Under the pieces are notes generated by a model. That model was not told where the DNA came from, did no database searches, and was given only the letters and a program-made list of their open reading frames with translations. From Salinivenus lutea (GTDB lineage Bacteria; Bacteroidota; Rhodothermia; Rhodothermales; Salinibacteraceae): a stretch of 64,000 bases of DNA. The translations under genes were made by a program, and so were the position numbers. Where the stretch lies: assembly GCA_002894685.1 (NCBI GenBank), contig NCRC01000011.1, positions 1-64,000 on the forward strand, in the 5' to 3' direction. Position 1 is the first letter of the stretch. The number at the start of each line of letters is the position of its first letter. Below are positions 4,542 through 63,909 of this stretch, in pieces.

Positions 4542-4835
4542 CGGAGGAGGAGAGAAGGGAAAGGTCGTTGGAAGGGGCGGTATGGGGGGTCGTCAATGTG
4601 CGAACGCCCCGATTCTTCCCGGAGGCGCTGGGCCACTGGGCAGCGACCGGTGGGCTCGTTCCCGAAACGGGATCGTTTGTGCCTCAGACGCAGGCGCCCC
4701 CCGGACGGGGCGCTGCGGGCAGGGGCGTATCGAAAAGAGCGTCCCAGTTTCATTTCATCTTAGCGGGGGGCAGTTGCGGAAGACGCCGAGCACGTGTACC
4801 CTCATCGTACGTCAGGCGCCACTGTTAAGCCCATC
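4542..4835. other. Intergenic region before the riboswitch
   Basis: No gene was found in this divergent gap. It must hold the promoter of the helicase (minus strand) and that of the riboswitch transcript (plus strand). I could not pick a convincing hexamer pair for either. Short open frames here have no start context or composition typical of the neighbours. Confidence 0.5.
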
Positions 4836-4946
4836 CTCATTTCGAAGGGAGTAGGGACCAGGCCCGATGATCCCCTGGCAACCGTCTCGGCTCCGCCGGG
4901 AAACTGGTGCCCCATCCTGCCCCGCCCCCAAGCGGGGACCGATGAG
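4836..4946 (+). promoter_or_regulatory. SAM-I (S-box) riboswitch
   Basis: The order of elements is that of the S-box aptamer. The P1 left arm is CTCAT at 4836-4840, then GGGACCAGGCCCGATGA, CCTGGCAACC, GGTGCCCCATCCTGCC, a closing GC-rich stem, and the P1 right arm ATGAG at 4942-4946. This aptamer binds S-adenosylmethionine and usually turns the downstream gene off when methionine is plentiful. The downstream gene is the TonB-dependent receptor at 5360. A small stem at 4956-4975 (GCATCC/GGATGC) follows, but I see no clear U-tract, so termination or translation control is unresolved. Confidence 0.93.
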
Positions 4947-5359
4947 CGGAGGGTCGCATCCAGAACGCGGGATGCCTCTTCTGCTCGTTGCGGAAGGGGC
5001 TTTTCACTGCGCCGTCACGTGCGCGACACGCCCGCTTTTTTGCTGGAGTCCTGACATGATTGTCTCTTTGTCGTTTGCGTCGGGGACTGCCTCCGCGACG
5101 TTCCCACCCTGCCCCCTTGCCCCCGCCCCGAAACCGTGTGGCGGGGATGGTCTCTGTATGGGGGAGATCTCCTGTCGATAGGGCGACTCGGCCCCGCCGC
5201 TGCGCCCCGGTCTGTGGTTCCTGCACGACGCAGGGCCCTTGTCCGACCGGTCCGTGTGGTCGCTGGGCGCTTCGTCGCGTACGGGGCTCATGACGTCCAG
5301 GCGGACGCGTGGGCCCAGTTCTCACACGCGCATTCTCGCTGATCTGATTTCCCTATACC
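4947..5359 (+). other. Long leader between SAM riboswitch and receptor gene
   Basis: About 410 bases without a convincing gene. A short GCATCC/GGATGC hairpin lies at 4956-4975. The region is GC-rich and the frames in it are not protein-like. It may be a long 5' leader, or hold an expression platform with rho-type control. A second promoter cannot be excluded. Confidence 0.45.
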
Positions 5360-18876: not shown

Positions 18877-19024
18877 TCAGGTGGAGCCCTTCACTTTCAG
18901 AGGAATCCGAGGTTGTCGGTCTGCTTCCATGAGAAGTAAGAGCATTTCGGCCTTTTTTCCTGCTCGGCATCGGAATTGGATCGACATGCTCGGGCAAAAT
19001 GTCTGGGCAACTGGGGACATGCAT
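18877..19024 (-). pseudogene. Small 'DPIP' family protein, copy a, frameshifted
   Basis: From 19024 the frame reads MHVPSCPDILPEHVDPIPMP and then loses similarity. One base away, the reading AGKKAEMLLLLMEADRQPRI resumes the family's second half and ends at 18877. The first half matches the intact copy at 43985 (MHVPEHADVLPEHIDPIPMP). This copy lies about 20 kb from the others. A single indel near 18962, in a run of A residues, explains the break. Confidence 0.65.
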
Positions 19025-30467: not shown

Positions 30468-31064
30468 ATGACCAAGACCGAAGAAGTTCTCCGGCTTGCC
30501 CGCCAGAAAGGTGTGGTCCAGGCAAGCGATCTGAAAGAAAAGGGACTGCCCCCACGCTACCTCTCTCGGCTCGCCAACCGTGGAAAGCTTCAGCGGGAGG
30601 GGAGGGGCCTGTATCGCCATCCGGAGGCCCCCCTGACCGAGCACCACAGCCTGGCCCTGGTCGCTGCACGGTATTCGAGCGTCGTTATCTGTCTTCTTTC
30701 TGCGCTCCAGTTCCACGAGTTGACCACTCAGATGCCCCGCAGAGTCTGGGTGGCGCGGGAGAAGGGAGACTGGGACCCGGAAGCGAGCCCGACGAACATT
30801 GAGGTTGTTCACATGTCGGATCTGAGTTTCACGGAGGGGGCTGAAGCTCACGACGTGGAAGGGATCCCCGTGCGGGTCTTCAGCCCAGCCAAGACCGTAG
30901 CCGATTGCTTCAAGTTTCGAGGGAAGGTCGGCCTATCGGTTGCCATCGAGGCCCTTAGGGACTACGTGCGGTCCGGCGCGGGTCCAATCGAGGAGCTGTA
31001 TCACTTTGCGGAGATCTGTCGGGTGCGGTCGGTGATGCGCCCATACATCGAGGCGACCGTGTAG
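30468..31064 (+). CDS. AbiEi-type antitoxin
   Basis: A 198-residue protein. The N-terminal winged helix (EVLRLARQKGVVQASDLKEK, GLPPRYLSRLANRGKLQREG, RGLYRHPEAP) and the C-terminal domain with HHSLALVAARYSSVVICLLS and VRVFSPAKTVADCFKFRGKV match AbiEi/COG5340. In type IV systems this protein represses the operon and counteracts the nucleotidyltransferase toxin. The toxin gene follows after 44 bases on the same strand. It starts a GC-rich block directly after the IS relic. Confidence 0.9.
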   Translation: MTKTEEVLRLARQKGVVQASDLKEKGLPPRYLSRLANRGKLQREGRGLYRHPEAPLTEHHSLALVAARYSSVVICLLSALQFHELTTQMPRRVWVAREKGDWDPEASPTNIEVVHMSDLSFTEGAEAHDVEGIPVRVFSPAKTVADCFKFRGKVGLSVAIEALRDYVRSGAGPIEELYHFAEICRVRSVMRPYIEATV

Positions 31065-31108
31065 CATTCCGGTCTCTTTTCCATTCAGACGATTTCCAGT
31101 TCTCTCGA

Positions 31109-32029
31109 ATGAGCTCCCCCGTCGCACAATCAGTTCGGGATCGTCTCCTCAACCGCAAGAGGGAAACGGGAGAGGAATATCAGGTGCTTCTTACTCGATT
31201 TGCGCTGGAACGGCTACTGTACCGACTTTCTCAACTTCCAGAGGCAGACGACTTTGTGCTCAAGGGGGCATTTGCCTTCCTTGTCTGGGAGGGAACGCTT
31301 GGGCGTCAAACTCGAGATATTGATCTCTTAGGAAGCGGGCCTCCTGAGGCCGACCGCCTTAAGGAGATCCTACTCCGGGCTTGTCGTGTAGAGGTGCCAG
31401 ACGACGGCGTCGAATATGAGAACGAGAGCCTCGAAGTTCAGCGTATTCGCGAGGGAGTTGAATACGAGGGGCTAAGGGCGAACCTGTATGCTCGCATCGG
31501 ATCTGCGCGTCTTCGGCTCCAGGTAGATGTTGGGTTCGGAGACGCCGTCCAGCCGCCACCTAAGCGAGAAGTGTTTCCGGGACTTCTAGACTTCCCAGAG
31601 CCTGAAATAAAGACCTACAGTCCAGAACCCGTGGTTGCGGAGAAGCTGCACGCGATGGTGCGGTATGGCCGGGCCAACACGAGAATGAAGGATTTCTACG
31701 ACATCTGGCGCATCAGTAAAACAGCTGATCTCGACGGGCCTCTCCTCACTTCTGCAGTGCAGGCCACCTTTCGCCGGCGAGAGACAGCGATTCCTCAAGA
31801 GGTGCCGGTTGCCCTCACGGAGAAGTTTGCAGAGGAGCCTGGCAAAGAGCGTCAATGGGAGGCCTTTTCGGGCCAAGTGGGAGGGGAGAGGGGAAGCTTA
31901 GAATCTGAGACCTTGCGAACCGTGATTTCGGACCTCCGAAAATTTCTCCTTCCCGTCCTCCGTGCCGCAAAAGGGGAAGCACCTCCACCCGGCATATGGC
32001 TCAGAGGAGGTCTCTGGGAATCGAGTTAG
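31109..32029 (+). CDS. AbiEii-type nucleotidyltransferase toxin
   Basis: A 306-residue DUF1814/AbiEii protein. FVLKGAFAFLVWEGTLGRQT followed by RDIDLLG gives the polymerase-beta-like motif with D70 and D72. PEPVVAEKLHAMVRYGRANT and RMKDFYDIW are the family's C-terminal signatures. AbiEii-type toxins transfer nucleotides to RNA (tRNA in studied cases) and give abortive infection or maintenance of mobile DNA. All key residues are present, so the pair is probably functional. The C-terminus after 240 is acidic and less conserved. Confidence 0.92.
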   Translation: MSSPVAQSVRDRLLNRKRETGEEYQVLLTRFALERLLYRLSQLPEADDFVLKGAFAFLVWEGTLGRQTRDIDLLGSGPPEADRLKEILLRACRVEVPDDGVEYENESLEVQRIREGVEYEGLRANLYARIGSARLRLQVDVGFGDAVQPPPKREVFPGLLDFPEPEIKTYSPEPVVAEKLHAMVRYGRANTRMKDFYDIWRISKTADLDGPLLTSAVQATFRRRETAIPQEVPVALTEKFAEEPGKERQWEAFSGQVGGERGSLESETLRTVISDLRKFLLPVLRAAKGEAPPPGIWLRGGLWESS

Positions 32030-32407
32030 TGTAGGGGCGAACTTCTAGGAGACTGTTTTCAAGGGGGCTCATTAGAATACTCCTTCAGAAGACACGCCTC
32101 CTGAGTTGCACGTTGCTTCTCGTCGGATGCAGGGAAATGCAGGGATCAGTCGCACGTGGAAGGCTTTCGCTCACTCTCCACAGCAGTGCTCACTGGGTTA
32201 TTGCAGTAGAATGACGAGAGATGTGTAGTCTACTCCAAGGAAGCCTGGAACGCTCGAAGAGAACGACTTCGAGGAGCTGTCCTCGAACTATACGCTGTAC
32301 GGGGTCATTTAGAGTATAAACGGTCCCTACAAGGAAAAGCTGTGTTAGGGGCGTTGCGTCAGGAGCCGAGCTCAGCCCGATCCAGTGACAAACTCGCACC
32401 CAACGAC
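32030..32407. other. Intergenic spacer upstream of the core-binding protein
   Basis: About 380 bases with no gene recognised. No terminator hairpin after the AbiE pair was found by eye. A promoter for the gene at 32408 is expected in the AT-richer part (32290-32340), where I see TATACG and TATAAA but cannot place a matching -35. Confidence 0.4.
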
Positions 32408-33769
32408 ATGAGCAGGACTGAACCTGGCCCTGCCGGTCCGGACGCGAAGGGCTCTTCTGATTCGAAGGGCTCCCCCGATCCGAAGGGCTCTCCCGACTCA
32501 AAAGGCTCTGACAAGGACCCGATGGGCAGAGACGGCTCAGACGAAGAGCGGGGGCTTATTGGCCAGTTTCTGCATCAGTACGAGAATAAAAATACGAGAC
32601 GCCTCTACAGAATCGACCTTGAGAAATTCGAGCGCTTTCTGGCGGAGAGCCGCGGGACTGGGGTACATGGGGCGGGCGAGTCCGTGGAAGCGAGGAAACC
32701 GGTTGAGGCCCGACGCAAGGAAGTTTTCCAGTTTCTCCGCCGAGAGAGCACGTCCGTAGGCCGATCGACGCTTCGGCGCCGAGCGACGGCCCTAAAGCTT
32801 TTCTTCGATTGGCTCGAAGCCGAGGGGCACGCGGACAGCCGGCCAATCGGGAGCGACGAAAGCGTTAGCTCTCTAGTCGACACCGTTCTGGAAGAGAACC
32901 CCGGCAGGGAGGAGAGCCCCGGCAGGGAGGAGAGCCCCGGCAGGGAGGAGAGCCCCGGCAGGGAGGAGAGCCCCGGCAGGAAGGAGAGCCCCGGCAGGAA
33001 GGAGAGCCCCGGCAGGAAGGGGAACGCCAACAAGGAGGAAAGCTCCAACAGGGAAGAAGAACCGGGCGGGGAAGAAGACCCCAAGGAAGAGGACGGTCCA
33101 AGCAAGGAGGAGAATCCAAGCAAGGAGGAGAATCCAAGCAAGGAGGAGAATCCAAGCGGAACGGGAGGGCAGAGGGAAGAAAGCGGCAAGAAAAGGGCCC
33201 GCGCGTCGTCGGAAGGCCCATTGGACATTCCCCACTGGGTCCGCGCCGCGGCAGAAGAGAACGCCGAGGAAATCATCCTGGGCCTTGATGGCAAGTTCGC
33301 GCCTCTCGCCAAGGTGCCCGGCGCTGTCCTCCAGGGTTTATCAGAGCTTACGAAATGGACGGGCAACCCCTACTGGTACAATTACATCCGTTTGACTTCC
33401 GGGGACGAAGACCTCACGGTACAGATCGAACAAAGCCAGGACCCTCTCCGAATTGAGGTCCGGATTGAGCACGACGTGATCCAGCGCATCGCCAGGCGCG
33501 GGCCTGATTCGCTCCGCTCCTACCACACAGTTCCTAAGCGGGCCCTTTGGTACTTTCGGGGTCGGGGATGGAGCATGCCCCGTGCGCCATACAAGCTGGT
33601 GGGGTTTTCCCACGCGGGAGGAGTGTCGGAGACCGATCCGACCTGGACGAGCACATCTTCCGACTTGACCGGTGCTCAATTCCAGGCGGCGATCGAAGTG
33701 ACGAGCGCCCTCACGAAGGCGTTCGGAATAGAAAAAGAGGAGAAGGTGCTCATCAGCCTCGGCCCGTGA
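32408..33769 (+). CDS. Recombinase core-binding domain joined to acidic repeats and an unknown C-terminal domain
   Basis: A 453-residue acidic protein, start MSRTEPGPAGPD. Residues 10-32 are a short S-D-x-K-G repeat. Residues about 45-140 match the SAM-like core-binding domain of tyrosine recombinases (GLIGQFLHQYENKNTRRLYR, IDLEKFERFLAES, STLRRRATALKLFFDWLEAE). No catalytic R-H-R-Y domain follows. Instead there are tandem E-S-P-G-R-E and N-P-S-K-E-E repeats (about 162-252) and a 170-residue C-terminal domain (IPHWVRAAAEENAEEIILGL, FGIEKEEKVLISLGP) that I do not recognise. It may bind specific DNA, for instance the repeats at 34.1-34.3 kb. Confidence 0.7.
   Translation: MSRTEPGPAGPDAKGSSDSKGSPDPKGSPDSKGSDKDPMGRDGSDEERGLIGQFLHQYENKNTRRLYRIDLEKFERFLAESRGTGVHGAGESVEARKPVEARRKEVFQFLRRESTSVGRSTLRRRATALKLFFDWLEAEGHADSRPIGSDESVSSLVDTVLEENPGREESPGREESPGREESPGREESPGRKESPGRKESPGRKGNANKEESSNREEEPGGEEDPKEEDGPSKEENPSKEENPSKEENPSGTGGQREESGKKRARASSEGPLDIPHWVRAAAEENAEEIILGLDGKFAPLAKVPGAVLQGLSELTKWTGNPYWYNYIRLTSGDEDLTVQIEQSQDPLRIEVRIEHDVIQRIARRGPDSLRSYHTVPKRALWYFRGRGWSMPRAPYKLVGFSHAGGVSETDPTWTSTSSDLTGAQFQAAIEVTSALTKAFGIEKEEKVLISLGP
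32898..33164 (+). repeat. In-frame tandem repeats in the linker
   Basis: About seven 18-base units of the form AGCCCCGGCAGGGAGGAG (encoding S-P-G-R-E-E or S-P-G-R-K-E) occupy 32898-33010. Three 18-base units encoding N-P-S-K-E-E follow at about 33106-33160. Several units are identical at DNA level, pointing to recent expansion. Confidence 0.85.
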
Positions 33770-36315: not shown

Positions 36316-36677
36316 AAGTGCCTGACCCCAAGAAAGCTGAGCATCAGGAAAGCGGATCCACGAGGCCCCCCCCCGAGGGACCGACTCCACGAGGGAGACA
36401 AGAGCTTTCTACTTGGACAAGCTGAACGCTGGAAGGTCTCAAGCCAGACTCTAATGCTGTCGCTACGGCCAACTGCCGCTCCTTGCGACTACGCAGACAG
36501 CTATCCCAACTATCCGGGGGGCTCCCGGGCGCGCCGCACGTTCACTCCATCCTGAGCGCCTACTGTACGGCCATGAAGGACTAAGTGGAGCCACTACTAA
36601 AAACGTTAGACTCCAGGGCAGCGCGTGTCTACGAGACGCACGTCTGCGAGAGACCTTCCCACATCTTTTCTCTCCCG
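36316..36677. other. Spacer holding the upstream motif of the next gene
   Basis: No gene was found. CGTTAGACT at 36604-36612 is the motif shared by the 'DPIP' family, 66-74 bases before the start at 36678. Confidence 0.45.
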
Positions 36678-37214
36678 ATGTATGTCCCCGACCACGACTT
36701 TGTCGATCGTCCCATCCCAATTCCAGAGACTCGCGAAGAGGCCCGTGTGCTGCTCCTCATGATACGCTTTGGGTCGGCGCCGGAGGTGCCGGACAACCCC
36801 GCGCCCGTCCGCTTGAAGGCGCCACAGGAGGAGTTCACTACAGGTCCCGGGAAGGCGGTGAAGGACAAGCCTTCTTCAAGCCACAGGGCGACTGTCCCTA
36901 ACAAGCCCATGCTGAACGACAAAGAGGCTTCTCCAAGAGACGAGGGCCCGGAGGTGTCTCTCCTCCAGGTCGTCGGTGCGGTCCGCAACGAGCTCGAAAA
37001 GCGCATCGCCAGTCTGAAGGCTCTTCAGGCTCGTCTCCAGCATCGGGGTCCGCTTGAGGGGAGTACTTCAGCGGGGTCCAATAAAGCAACTGAAGAGCCG
37101 ATTGAGGAGAGGTCGCTTTCACCAACCGCACATGCCCGAAAGGTCGCCGCTGACCTTGAGACGTACGCCACCGCGCTACGGAACTTGAGCGAACAGGAGG
37201 CTCTCGGCTCTTAA
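36678..37214 (+). CDS. 'DPIP' family protein, copy b (long form)
   Basis: A 178-residue protein starting MYVPDHDFVDRPIPIPETRE. The first 35 residues match the short family members at 38616 and 43985 (M-x-V-P-[DE]-H ... I-P-[IM]-P ... R-V-L-L-L). The last 70 residues (EVSLLQVVGAVRNELEKRIA, HARKVAADLETYATALRNLS) match the C-terminus of the protein at 40509-40847 (HVRKIAADLEMCATALRETA). It therefore joins the two modules. The start at 36678 is chosen by that similarity, not the upstream ATG at 36585. Function unknown; the tail looks helical or coiled-coil. Confidence 0.6.
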   Translation: MYVPDHDFVDRPIPIPETREEARVLLLMIRFGSAPEVPDNPAPVRLKAPQEEFTTGPGKAVKDKPSSSHRATVPNKPMLNDKEASPRDEGPEVSLLQVVGAVRNELEKRIASLKALQARLQHRGPLEGSTSAGSNKATEEPIEERSLSPTAHARKVAADLETYATALRNLSEQEALGS

Positions 37215-37313: not shown

Positions 37314-37553
37314 ATGACAAACCTGACCGTCAAGGACCTGCCAGACGCCCTCCACGAAAAGCTGAAATCCCGGGCGCACGCCAATCGTCGCTTGTTCGCT
37401 TCGGAGGTGACGATTCTTTTGGAGCGGACCCTCGGGGAGCGCGCCACTTCTGAGGAGGATCTGCTCGAACGGGCCAATCGGCTCCGAGAGCAGACCCCGA
37501 CCCGCCTTACTGAGGGAAAGCGTCAAGAGGCCGTCTGGCGAGGCCCTGCATAA
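37314..37553 (+). CDS. FitA-like ribbon-helix-helix antitoxin, no visible toxin
   Basis: A 79-residue protein. MTNLTVKDLPDALHEKLKSR and AHANRRLFASEVTILLERTL match the Arc/RHH fold of FitA-type antitoxins (usual form 'ANRRSLNSEVxxLLERAL'). FitA pairs with a PIN-domain toxin in the next gene, but downstream only an integrase tail is found. It may be an orphan that protects against a toxin elsewhere, or a lone repressor. The start at 37314 was chosen to match the family; 37308 is equally possible. Confidence 0.75.
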   Translation: MTNLTVKDLPDALHEKLKSRAHANRRLFASEVTILLERTLGERATSEEDLLERANRLREQTPTRLTEGKRQEAVWRGPA

Positions 37554-37676
37554 CAGGCTACTCGTGGCTTTCTCTGCTCACGGCCTCACGGAAGACTTGG
37601 TCAAGGTCGAAGCCATGACGTGGCTCCGATAGATCGCCGGGTCTACCTTACACAGGGCGCCTTTAACGGCGTATAG

Positions 37677-37787
37677 CTCAGCGGGCTCATGAAGCAGGCC
37701 GGACACGCCGATCCCAGGACCACGGCCAGCTACGTCGAGGACGCGAAACGCATGGAGACGAACACGAGCTGGGATCTGGGTCTGTAG
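37677..37787 (+). pseudogene. Tyrosine recombinase C-terminal relic
   Basis: After a stop codon at 37674-37676 the frame reads LSGLMKQAGHADPRTTASYV and EDAKRMETNTSWDLGL. G-H-A-D-x-R-T-T-x-x-Y is the C-terminal active-site box of phage-type integrases, with the nucleophile Tyr in SYVE. Nothing upstream resembles the rest of the enzyme, so only about 36 residues remain. It marks an old site-specific integration event in the island. Confidence 0.65.
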
Positions 37788-38213: not shown

Positions 38214-38289
38214 ACAAAGAGCCCGCCGGCAGCGCTGTGGACCCTGGACGGGCGCTGAGGCGAGCTCAAAACTCCTCTTTGATACTGGA
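38214..38289 (-). ncRNA. Small terminator-ended RNA, copy 1
   Basis: A minus-strand promoter (TTGACA at 38321-38326, 19-base spacer, TATATT at 38296-38301) would start an RNA near 38289. Its 3' end is a two-part hairpin: GCTCGCC/GGCGGGC arms at 38259-38265 and 38221-38227 and an inner CAGCGC/GCGCTG pair, then TCTTTGTATTT. Copy 2 at 43776 has the same promoter spacing and stem with changed loop bases. It could be a free small RNA, or a leader with an attenuator for the zinc-ribbon gene 50 bases downstream. Confidence 0.6.
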
Positions 38290-38295
38290 CTTACT

Positions 38296-38326
38296 AATAT
38301 AGCAAAATTGCCCCCCGGGTTGTCAA
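38296..38326 (-). promoter_or_regulatory. Promoter of small RNA copy 1
   Basis: TTGACA is a perfect -35 and TATATT a good -10. The 19-base spacer is long but identical in copy 2, which argues that it is used. Confidence 0.6.
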
Positions 38327-38422
38327 GAAGTGGGCGTAAAGAACCTGCGACGAAAGGGTTAGATTGGGACGGCCAGCTGTGTCTGTCCAGCCCACTTCGA
38401 CCACGGGGCTCCATCTGGACCC

Positions 38423-38550
38423 ATGCACGTCCCTGAGCACGCCGACATTCTCCCCGACGGTGTTGCCCCCACATGCCGGATTCGCGTAAGGAGGCCAGAA
38501 TCTTGGCGCCACTCTTAGGCGCTGGCATTTATCCAAGGCTGAAGGGGTGA
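38423..38550 (+). pseudogene. 'DPIP' family protein, copy c, frameshifted
   Basis: The frame reads MHVPEHADILPDGVAP, then departs. The next frame gives HMPDSRKEARILAPLLGAGI and stops at 38550, restoring the family's second half (compare MPDSERERVILLLRLGAD in copy e). One lost base in the CCCCC run near 38465 explains it. It faces away from small-RNA copy 1, exactly as copy e faces away from small-RNA copy 2. Confidence 0.7.
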
Positions 38551-38615: not shown

Positions 38616-38786
38616 CTATGCGCCTTCGTGATTGGACCCTTGGTGGGGAGGAGGCACGTCTCCGTGTTTGCGCTCGTCCTTCAACAGCATTCGGACCAGC
38701 AGTTCGAATGCCTCAAGGTTGGTTTCAGGCAGAGGGATAGGATCAACGCCCCCGGGAAGAAGCTCCTTGTGATCGGGTCGCCTCAC
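38616..38786 (-). CDS. 'DPIP' family protein, copy d
   Basis: A 56-residue protein if the GTG at 38786 is used: RRPDHKELLPGGVDPIPLPE, then TNLEAFELLVRMLLKDERKH. It shares P-D-H-x-x-L-L-P-x-x-V-D-P-I-P with the other copies. The ATG of the longer frame (38831) is less likely because similarity begins only after the GTG. A CGTTAGACT motif lies about 65 bases upstream, as in copies b and e. Confidence 0.55.
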   Translation of the reverse strand: MRRPDHKELLPGGVDPIPLPETNLEAFELLVRMLLKDERKHGDVPPPHQGSNHEGA

Positions 38787-38831
38787 GGCGCAAGCTGAGA
38801 CAATTCGCCTGGAAATGCACCCGGTGGACAA

Positions 38832-40508: not shown

Positions 40509-40847
40509 TCACTGCTCCGGCTTCTCGGGAAAACCCGTCTCACCCGCCTCCCCAGCCGTCTCCCGAAGCGCCGTCGCGCACATCTCCAGGTCGGCGGCAA
40601 TCTTCCGCACGTGCTGCCGCGGGGACTTCATCTCTGCCTCCGCCACGTCCAGCCCCTCGGGCAGCTCCTGCTGGCGAAGCTGCAGACAGATCGCCTGCAG
40701 GTCCGATGTCGTTGTGTCGAGCTCAGAGACGACGGCGGCGATCACGTCGGAGAGGGGAGGAGAGGCCGCGCCGTCACCCTGGCCAGCATTGAGACCCTGG
40801 CCGGCACTGAGGTCGTCAGGCATGGGTCTGTGGTCTTTTGCATGCAA
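40509..40847 (-). CDS. Small unknown protein sharing a module with the gene at 36678
   Basis: A 112-residue protein. Its last 60 residues contain SPRQHVRKIAADLEMCATAL, matching the tail of the long 'DPIP' protein at 36678 (AHARKVAADLETYATALRNL), including the K-x-A-A-D-L-E core. The middle (SDVIAAVVSELDTTTSDLQA, ICLQLRQQEL) matches in pattern and is probably an antiparallel helical hairpin. The start may be 40847 or 40823. It converges with the receiver gene at 12 bases. No function was recognised. Confidence 0.6.
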   Translation of the reverse strand: MHAKDHRPMPDDLSAGQGLNAGQGDGAASPPLSDVIAAVVSELDTTTSDLQAICLQLRQQELPEGLDVAEAEMKSPRQHVRKIAADLEMCATALRETAGEAGETGFPEKPEQ

Positions 40848-42699: not shown

Positions 42700-43593
42700 C
42701 TAGCGAGCAGCGAGCACGTCCCGCACAGGAGTCCATTCGATATCCGGGTACCGTTCGTTGTCGAGCGAGTCCAGCTTCGCCTCCCCGCTGAACATATCCC
42801 GCAGATACTGCATCCCTTGCCACGGCGGGAAAACCTCGCCCCGACTGGGGACGAGCGTGCGCGTGAGCTTGATGAGCAGATTGAGCCGGCTGATGCCCCC
42901 AGCACGGAATGTTTTGAAGGACTTTCCGGTCGCCTCGCTTGCGGCGTCAGCCAGCCTGCGTGACGAGAGCACGTCCCCGGCGACCTGAAGGTCACGTGGG
43001 GCGCCCTCGTCGAGCGCGGCGGCGGCCGTGACAGCAGCCGTGTCGTCCTGAGTTGTGAAGTCGAGCGGCTGGTCGGCGTCCCCCCAGCAGACGACGCGCC
43101 GGAGGGGGAAGAGGACGACGGGGGCCGGTCCGATCAGGAGGTCGGCAAACATCCCGTTGAACACAGATGTGGCTGCGATTGGGGCTTGGTCGAGCCGTTC
43201 TCGGAAGGTGCGGCGAAGATCGAGGTTTCGGTTCGTGCCGGGCGTAAGCCCCCTGTAATCGATGCAGTAGTCGGAGGGGATGAACCGGGGGACGTCGGCC
43301 TCGACGGCTGCGTCGAGGAGCGACGTTTGCGCCTCCACGATCACGTCTCGAAGTCCGGAAAGCGCCGAGACGACACAACTTGCCCCTTCGCACGCCTCAG
43401 CTAAAGCAGAGGCGTCGTCGTATGCTGCCTCTGCGATCTCGACGCCCTGTCGTCGGAGCGCTTTTACATCGATTGCGTCGCTGGCGGGGCGTGCAATAGC
43501 CCGTACCGAAGCGCCTCGGCTCAGAAGCTCCCGGGCAATCCGGCCGCCGAGGTCACCAGTAGCGCCGGCTGATACGATCAGAGGGCTGTCCAT
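42700..43593 (-). CDS. NmrA-family NAD(P)-binding protein
   Basis: A 297-residue Rossmann protein of the NmrA/isoflavone-reductase type. LIVSAGATGDLGGRIARELL gives the G-x-x-G-x-x-G nucleotide loop near residue 8, and ASVRAIARPASDAI, CVVSALSGLRDVI, FIPSDYCIDYRGL and NRNLDLRRTFRERL follow the family order. The last third (FTTQDDTAAVTAAAALDEGA) covers the substrate domain. It may be an atypical reductase or a redox sensor. The start at 43593 matches the family; the upstream extension is not conserved. Confidence 0.88.
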   Translation of the reverse strand: MDSPLIVSAGATGDLGGRIARELLSRGASVRAIARPASDAIDVKALRRQGVEIAEAAYDDASALAEACEGASCVVSALSGLRDVIVEAQTSLLDAAVEADVPRFIPSDYCIDYRGLTPGTNRNLDLRRTFRERLDQAPIAATSVFNGMFADLLIGPAPVVLFPLRRVVCWGDADQPLDFTTQDDTAAVTAAAALDEGAPRDLQVAGDVLSSRRLADAASEATGKSFKTFRAGGISRLNLLIKLTRTLVPSRGEVFPPWQGMQYLRDMFSGEAKLDSLDNERYPDIEWTPVRDVLAAR

Positions 43594-43775: not shown

Positions 43776-43851
43776 GAAAAAGCCCGCCGACAGCGCCGTA
43801 TACTCCCGGCGGAGCGCTGGGGCGAGCTCAAAACTCTGTTCTCAAATAGTA
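43776..43851 (-). ncRNA. Small terminator-ended RNA, copy 2
   Basis: TTGACA (43883-43888), a 19-base spacer and TATACT (43858-43863) on the minus strand predict a start near 43851. The RNA ends in the same two-part hairpin as copy 1 (GCTCGCC/GGCGGGC, inner CAGCGC/GCGCTG) with TTTTTC. The TTTTGAGCTCGCC segment before the stem is nearly identical in the two copies. The NmrA-like gene begins about 180 bases downstream, so a free RNA is likelier here than a leader. Confidence 0.62.
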
Positions 43852-43857
43852 TTTACC

Positions 43858-43888
43858 AGTATATTAAAATCGACCCCCGGGGTGTCAA
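43858..43888 (-). promoter_or_regulatory. Promoter of small RNA copy 2
   Basis: Near-consensus hexamers TTGACA and TATACT with the same 19-base spacer as copy 1. Confidence 0.6.
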
Positions 43889-43984
43889 GGGGTGGCGGTG
43901 AAGAATCAGCAACGAAGTCGTTAGAATGCCGGCCTGGTCGTGTCTGTCGATTCCAATTCGTCTTAAGAGCCCCCATTTCTGTCC

Positions 43985-44161
43985 ATGCATGTCCCTGAGC
44001 ACGCCGACGTTCTTCCCGAGCACATCGATCCCATTCCCATGCCCGATTCGGAGCGGGAACGGGTGATTCTGTTACTCCGGTTAGGGGCCGATCTCTCCCT
44101 GGAGTTGACCGATGAACCGGACACGCTCCGTCAGTTGCTCCACCCGACGGTTGCGATGTAG
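43985..44161 (+). CDS. 'DPIP' family protein, copy e (intact short form)
   Basis: A 58-residue protein: MHVPEHADVLPEHIDPIPMP, then DSERERVILLLRLGADLSLE, ending HPTVAM. It is the best-preserved short member and the reference for the family. It is divergent from small-RNA copy 2, with 134 bases between the RNA start and the ATG. CGTTAGAAT lies about 66 bases upstream. The acidic, helix-rich makeup gives no functional hint; the conserved D-P-I-P turn may be a docking motif. Confidence 0.6.
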   Translation: MHVPEHADVLPEHIDPIPMPDSERERVILLLRLGADLSLELTDEPDTLRQLLHPTVAM

Positions 44162-63352: not shown

Positions 63353-63805
63353 AGAAGTCGACACGAAGTGGGCTGGGGAGGCAATTCGTCCAACGGGTAT
63401 CTGTGGCTGATCCGGTCTGGCGTTCGTCCCTCTCGAATTTCAACAAGTGGGCGGTCGTTTCAGAAACAGCGGTTTCTGAAGCGGCCCTTTTGGATGACGC
63501 CGGGGATGGCTCCACACGACGTTGCAAATCCGAGTTATCGGCAGCCTGGAAAAGAAGTGTCTACACCCACCGTTTCAAAACCCGATAGGCCGACCATGAT
63601 TTGATACAATCGGTTTTGAAGCAACTTATGAAACGTGGCCGCCGTCCCTGAGAGCCGTTCAGGCGGGGTGGGAGGGAGGCGGTCACGTCGTTTCAAAAAC
63701 CCTGGTTTTTGAAACATGTGATGCGATGTGGTAGAGAACGCCTGGGAAAAGATCCAGTCGAACGGGAAAACTGTAGCAACGGGGGCCACATACGAGTTTG
63801 GGATC
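63353..63805. other. Intergenic region between arsR and the fluoride riboswitch
   Basis: No gene was found in 450 bases apart from the inverted repeats. It probably holds the crcB promoter, for which no clear hexamers were chosen. Confidence 0.45.
63457..63715. repeat. Three related inverted repeats (GTTTCA-RAAAC type)
   Basis: IR1: GTTTCAGAAAC 63457-63467 with GTTTCTGAAGC 63472-63482. IR2: GTTTCAAAACC 63572-63582 with GGTTTTGAAGC 63612-63622. IR3: GTTTCAAAAACC 63690-63701 with GGTTTTTGAAAC 63704-63715, perfect with a 2-base loop. The shared half-site GTTTCA suggests a common binding protein or a decayed small mobile repeat. Confidence 0.6.
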
Positions 63806-63909
63806 GATGGCGATGGGGTCCGCCGATAACCGCCCTTTCCTTTAGGTCAGAGGGTTCTTGTCTGCTTGACTGTGGGCTGATGACTCCTATTGAATCTCAC
63901 TGATAGGAG
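63806..63909 (+). promoter_or_regulatory. Fluoride (crcB) riboswitch
   Basis: The aptamer reads GGCGATGGGGTCCGCC (63809-63824), GATAACCGCC, a variable arm and GCTGATGACTCCTAT (63876-63890), matching the crcB-motif order. CTCCTAT then pairs with ATAGGAG (63903-63909), a hairpin that would hide a Shine-Dalgarno-like AGGAG about 20 bases before the start. The first codons of crcB follow at 63929, which supports the call. Fluoride binding should allow expression. Confidence 0.93.

Follow-up and report, generated by a model that had tools for sequence, protein, structure and literature searches.

A predicted family of short, terminated RNAs with a stereotyped promoter in Salinibacter and Salinivenus, linked on plasmids to a small acidic protein family

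Our analysis of a divergent RNA/protein locus, here called copy 2, in a window of 64,000 nucleotides (the whole stretch of DNA analysed) leads us to propose, with a probability of about one half, that its minus-strand part (43777-43913) belongs to a multi-copy family of short terminated RNAs that share one stereotyped promoter, work as sibling trans-acting sRNAs and are activated by a response regulator, and that the protein encoded opposite represents a separate family found in the same plasmid neighbourhoods. Comparative sequence analysis delineates the predicted RNA family, its promoter, terminators and distribution, the protein family, and the linkage between the two. A first-pass annotation had taken RNA and protein for a single mobile module; what it observed was mostly right and its interpretation half right, RNA and protein being separable parts. 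The features of copy 2, with the equivalent RNA of copy 1 and the gene downstream, are as follows.

43858-43888, minus strand: small-RNA promoter core, an exact match to the family motif
43889-43913, minus strand: upstream element with direct repeats about 11 bp apart, from column information over 33 loci
43777-43852, minus strand: predicted short RNA of ~75 nt, from its position relative to the promoter and from homologous predicted transcripts at contig C53 of the same genome, at copy 1 and at G012:C112
43777-43829, minus strand: intrinsic terminator by computed fold, a long hairpin AGCTCGCC...GGCGGGCT followed by TTTTT
43985-44161, plus strand: gene for a 58-aa acidic protein of a new family, from family alignment and purifying selection
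42700-43593, minus strand: NmrA-family gene (Pfam NmrA, E=1.4e-25)
38216-38326, minus strand: copy 1, the same promoter and short RNA

Promoter and upstream element

On the minus strand of copy 2, the hexamers TTGACA (-35, 43888-43883) and TATACT (-10, 43863-43858) form a sigma-70-type promoter with a 19-nt spacer that holds the CCCCGGGGG box and ATTTT. The arrangement in copy 1 is equal to this, and the 19-base spacer that had been reported for both copies is indeed common to them (43888-43858 and 38326-38296). An alternative -10, TAATAT at 16-nt spacing, occurs in copy 2 alone; the family consensus retains the -10 at 19 nt. Spacers of 19-20 bp are characteristic of MerR-type promoters, and the likeness extends to a symmetric, GC-rich box within the spacer; the Salinibacter box, however, lies directly against the -35 and not in the middle of the spacer, and there is no linked MerR gene.

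Alignment of 33 promoters showed TTGAC, CCC.GGGG, TTT and TA...T to be invariant or nearly so. Upstream, a TCAC element occupies -13 to -10, a second lies 11 bp farther up, and a few loci carry additional repeats that keep the 11-bp spacing. The family consensus of this element is TTCAC-N6-GTCAC, at -25 and -14 from the -35; in copy 2 the -35-proximal TTCAC (43902-43898) is good and the distal repeat is degenerate. Direct repeats spaced by 11 bp 5′ of a promoter, the layout expected of OmpR/PhoB-type sites, are thus found over the 33 loci, and are weak in copy 2. The PHO box has a comparable layout of two 11-nt repeat units, with GTTCACC as its most conserved motif in S. coelicolor (PMC4415409), and the TTCAC/GTCAC half-site resembles this Streptomyces motif. 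The Salinibacter repeats differ in lying ~10 bp 5′ of an intact -35 and in showing no tie to phosphate genes. PhoB was considered as the activator and rejected: pstS of the same genome, which lies directly behind a PhoB-like gene, has no such repeats upstream, and the triple-repeat pattern gave three matches, none tied to phosphate genes. Taken together, the 11-bp repeats in OmpR/PhoB layout, the PHO-box-like half-site and the over-long spacer suggest an activator-dependent promoter.

The short RNA and its terminator

With the start of the copy 2 RNA placed 6-8 nt past the -10, the predicted transcript runs into a strong intrinsic terminator. Terminators of ≤ -15 kcal/mol within 100 nt of the promoter are present at 29 of 33 family loci, as against 18 of 600 random windows (3%), and strong terminators occurred in only 3 of 32 control windows taken upstream. 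An arrangement typical of sRNA genes, in which a promoter of its own and an intrinsic terminator enclose a short transcript, can therefore be read from the sequence at these 29 loci. Family members across the Salinibacter/Salinivenus genus are predicted to be short (about 60-155 nt) and intrinsically terminated.

Base-paired changes in the hairpin had been claimed for the two copies. In the four RNAs most similar to copy 2, three of the 15 pairs are variable, always through a change in one partner; no pair is broken, and none of the 15 is compensated on both sides. Local support for covariation is therefore weak, and that claim did not survive. The long members, most of which are on plasmids, have a conserved fold, with 90% of cells paired versus 30-41% in slid controls and four pairs altered on both sides. 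Short members show little conservation in their 5′ parts, where 19 of 33 have an A/T-rich core in common. Searched against 4227 Rfam covariance models, copy 2 gave no gathering-level match; at lax thresholds only chance-level matches appeared, and the long plasmid members gave none.

Distribution of the RNA family

A pattern for the promoter matched seven places in the same genome with at most one mismatch and an eighth, weaker one with two. In the genus it gave 35 matches in 11 of 13 genomes; since a reversed control pattern gave none, the motif is not a product of chance. The full unit of promoter plus terminated RNA was recognised at about 45 loci in 13 of 13 genus genomes. A sequence model built from 32 promoters likewise matched all 13 at E<1e-5, with up to 10 matches in the genome under study, and a sister genus of the same family has one solid match (1.8e-11) whose RNA is also recognisable. 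A strict version of the pattern, scanned over 84,980 species, was confined to Salinivenus and uncultured Bacteroidetes contigs. The genus-wide matches and the spread in the strict scan therefore mark the promoter-RNA feature as lineage-specific and widespread. DNA-query matches in three other genomes (G028, G047, G048) were dismissed as chance. A phage origin was also considered and rejected, as viral contigs yielded no match to the strict promoter pattern, and neither viral contigs nor phage records yielded the protein.

Several paralogous copies under one promoter type are thus carried per genome, as expected of sibling sRNAs. The RNA on C53, 82% identical to copy 2 and closer to it than copy 1 is, has no protein gene beside it. 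Sequence comparison places predicted members on plasmids, in plasmid-derived islands and at conserved chromosomal sites. The promoter is present on nine of ten protein-bearing S. ruber plasmids, on pSR35 and on others; by blastn against plasmids, one short-type RNA found no match and the other queries did.

The small acidic protein family

The 58-aa ORF starts 96 nt from the -35 and is divergent from the RNA; as first reported, the gene is intact (58 codons, 43985-44161). The family motif is MHxPxHxSxLPxxVxPIPxPDSxREAExLLxLL. Among relatives the median dN/dS over the N-terminal 39 codons is 0.29, and differences fall mainly at third codon positions (1662, against 835 and 705), so the ORF represents a real protein family. 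Neither RNA nor protein matches Rfam, Pfam, NCBIfam, PHROGs or PADLOC, the protein having been compared with the profiles of the last four; both families are real, the protein family new and the RNA family apparently undescribed. The protein is acidic and not membrane-spanning (charge -8, maximum KD19 0.79). AlphaFold models of three paralogues from the window have a mean pLDDT of 66, and only a helix at residues 23-43 is fairly confident.

Five of the 13 genus genomes carry the gene, as do 10 S. ruber plasmids; at nine of its ten best plasmid places the PLSDB gene table has no entry. A profile search of the rest of the order found nothing convincing; one match outside the genus (G089) was dismissed as chance. 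The window itself holds the remnant in copy 1 and, none of them with an RNA, three further relatives at 18.9, 36.6 and 38.7 kb.

38423-38547, plus strand: frameshifted remnant of the small protein gene in copy 1, two blocks in different frames
38619-38831, minus strand: small-protein paralogue with no small RNA attached
36585-37214, plus strand: gene for a 209-aa protein with a diverged small-protein domain (36678-36830)
18938-19024, minus strand: truncated or frameshifted paralogue, first 25-29 residues

A small coiled protein (40509-40823, minus strand) is similar in sequence to the 209-aa protein over the latter's C-terminal half, and relatives of it are found next to two other copies of the small RNA (L051 and L058).

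Linkage of RNA and protein on plasmids

Thirteen copies of the protein gene are found on the ten S. ruber plasmids, and eight of these have an RNA promoter within 1.6 kb, where 1.05 are expected and none of 100,000 simulations did as well. The geometry varies: the RNA may be convergent with the protein gene or in tandem with it, or a nuclease gene may lie between. An SNase-family nuclease (thermonuclease) carrying an Excalibur domain is divergent from the protein gene at eight of its ten best plasmid places, and dinB is beside the protein gene at three of the ten. In one genome (G009) the RNA, the protein gene, dinB and a umuC-like gene fall within about 4.5 kb. The association of small RNA and small protein that the first-pass annotation had noticed thus holds on plasmids, without the fixed 380-base module. 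The RNA, present in all 13 genus genomes, cannot depend on the protein, because in eight of them no protein gene is detectable; a functional tie between the two is suggested by their linkage.

RNA copies also flank or adjoin dinB at three loci (L074, L125, L120) in at least three genomes, a hint of a link to DNA damage.

Duplication, mobile module or joint locus

Copy 1 (38216-38547) repeats the layout of copy 2, as had been noted, with its ORF frameshifted. The two can be aligned over their full length and across the intergenic part, with 73% identity over 242 bp, and therefore stem from one old duplication; they are homologues rather than the two independent copies, or insertions, that had been supposed. 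A genome-wide search, proposed as a check on the module, found the exact divergent geometry in the two window copies alone: no third composite exists in 60 genomes, and the parts recur separately. Target-site duplications and inverted ends, likewise proposed as a check, were not convincingly present, a single 7-mer in copy 1 being the closest. Movement of some 380 bases as a unit is hard to sustain with no third composite, no ends and an RNA on C53 that has no protein. The deflating possibility raised at the outset, one recent duplication with no other copies, does not apply either, the duplication being old and its parts recurrent. What was put forward as an undescribed system stands as regards two unlisted families, of RNA and of protein, and falls as regards one mobile module. 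A small non-autonomous element of MITE type, transposing as a 380-bp unit, would account for a pair of copies separated by 5.5 kb within one island; it is extremely improbable given two composites that differ at more than a quarter of positions, other RNA copies that lack the ORF, and the absence of target-site duplications and terminal inverted repeats. Co-movement with plasmids fits the association better than such transposition, since no module ends were found.

It is also conceivable that RNA, small protein and SNase-family nuclease constitute one plasmid-borne locus for maintenance, stress or DNA damage, of which the window holds a reduced form without the nuclease. The plasmid linkage, the nuclease divergent from the protein gene on most plasmids with dinB nearby, and the G009 cluster all favour this; we nonetheless consider it improbable, because the RNA exists in 8 of 13 genus genomes without the protein, geometry varies among plasmids, no nuclease gene was identified beside the window copies, and plasmid backbones bring together many co-inherited, unrelated genes. 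A more elaborate version, in which a stress-switched RNA, the acidic PIPxPDS protein and the divergent nuclease near a translesion polymerase would jointly control plasmid persistence or damage response, the window being a chromosomal relic, is a speculation that we hold to be slightly less probable again. The adjacency of a small RNA and a small ORF, in more than one copy and on plasmids, also recalls type I toxin-antitoxin loci, in which the RNA would repress a small toxic peptide. This is very unlikely here: RNA and ORF neither overlap nor show complementarity, pairing of the copy 2 RNA with the small ORF mRNA ranks at 0.78 and is no better than in shuffled sequences, the peptide is acidic and not membrane-spanning, and the RNA occurs without it.

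Leader or free-standing RNA

The RNAs may instead be cis-acting attenuators, terminated leaders of a downstream co-directional gene that is switched on by read-through past the terminator; the genes concerned would be NmrA at copy 2, which is co-directional about 180 nt beyond the terminator and a possible read-through target, and a zinc-ribbon protein at copy 1. We regard this as possible, although on balance unlikely. At 34 independent loci, a co-directional gene lies within 400 nt at 12, a convergent gene at 4, and none in range at 18; the two window copies, whose genes are just out of range or were missed, would raise the 12 to 14. Genes around the loci were called with a simple codon-usage finder, which missed the zinc-ribbon gene. 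The downstream genes include dinB, an FAD oxidoreductase, a 68-aa membrane protein (in seven genomes) and, three times, a small HTH gene, and one locus (L048) has retained the promoter and lost the T-run, all of which would suit attenuation. A riboswitch or attenuator should, however, always lie 5′ of a co-directional gene, as is the case at 12 of 34 loci; the 4 convergent and 18 gene-free loci still retain the terminator, the RNA is preserved in another species at two of the convergent sites, one next to dinB and one next to a transporter gene, and no common alternative antiterminator fold was seen. Their own promoter and terminator, their multiplicity and the lack of a consistent downstream gene favour stand-alone trans-acting RNAs over leaders, with a leader role possibly remaining at a third of loci, the NmrA gene behind copy 2 included. 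Pairing of the copy 2 RNA with the NmrA mRNA ranked at 0.013 of 300 shuffles, as one of five uncorrected tests that covered few neighbouring mRNAs and brought no target to light.

At three loci in as many genomes (L032, L110, L123) the RNA immediately precedes the gene for one and the same helix-turn-helix protein of 81-87 aa, and in two of them a short hairpin stands ahead of its start codon.

A model for the RNA family

Transcription of the RNAs, their activator, their action in trans and a functional tie to the protein are what we infer from these patterns. We propose that an OmpR/PhoB-type response regulator would bind the 11-bp-spaced repeats TTCAC-N6-GTCAC 5′ of TTGACA and, under a stress, switch on together promoters that are non-optimally spaced, with their CCCGGGGG box and 19-nt spacer. 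The RNAs may then act in trans as sibling regulators, using 5′ parts that are unpaired and differ between members. The 58-aa ORF opposite would belong to a separate protein family that co-travels in plasmid neighbourhoods with the SNase-family nuclease and dinB.

Sibling multi-copy sRNAs under a single regulator are known in bacteria from OmrA/OmrB, which are controlled by OmpR. The Salinibacter RNAs are similar in that each genome carries a number of related short RNAs which end in a terminator and have in common a promoter with probable response-regulator sites. They differ in being lineage-specific and plasmid-borne, in having variable 5′ parts and no Rfam match, and in the 19-nt spacer and conserved CCCGGGGG box of their promoter. 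If expressed, they would amount to a genus-wide RNA regulon absent from the gene tables searched, in a host that is a dominant bacterium of salt-saturated brines, a setting in which small-RNA regulation is probably little known. With one stereotyped promoter serving RNAs of chromosome and plasmid alike, plasmids would be exploiting a single host signal. The small-protein family, without library match, extends over ten sequenced S. ruber plasmids, nine of them unannotated for it in the PLSDB table, and the recurrent nuclease neighbour makes its function testable.

Genomic context of the two copies

Beyond 28 kb of the window the GC content drops from about 66% to 51-61%, and the low-GC part contains a trace of an integrase.

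37635-37786, plus strand: decayed tyrosine recombinase fragment, 78-81% identical to the integrases of pSR31 and pSR61

Both of these S. ruber plasmids carry the RNA and the protein. S. ruber plasmids and low-GC genomic islands exchange DNA (PMC6060240), and the region resembles this gene pool of low-GC islands in exchange with pSR plasmids; the integrase fragment, the GC drop and the known exchange therefore place both copies in a plasmid-derived island. A word search of that paper found sRNA, non-coding, thermonuclease and DNA polymerase IV all absent.

Other features of the window include an ORF pair that by eye resembles AbiEi/AbiEii toxin-antitoxin genes (30468-32029, plus strand), a homologue of whose first member lies near another small-RNA copy (L119), and a FitA-like ribbon-helix-helix antitoxin (37314-37553, plus strand; Pfam 9.5e-8). 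An 18-bp tandem repeat (32840-33163, plus strand) within an integrase-like ORF (32342-33769) encodes ESPGRE repeats. A SAM riboswitch (4834-4948) and a fluoride riboswitch (63800-63896), both on the plus strand, score above Rfam thresholds.
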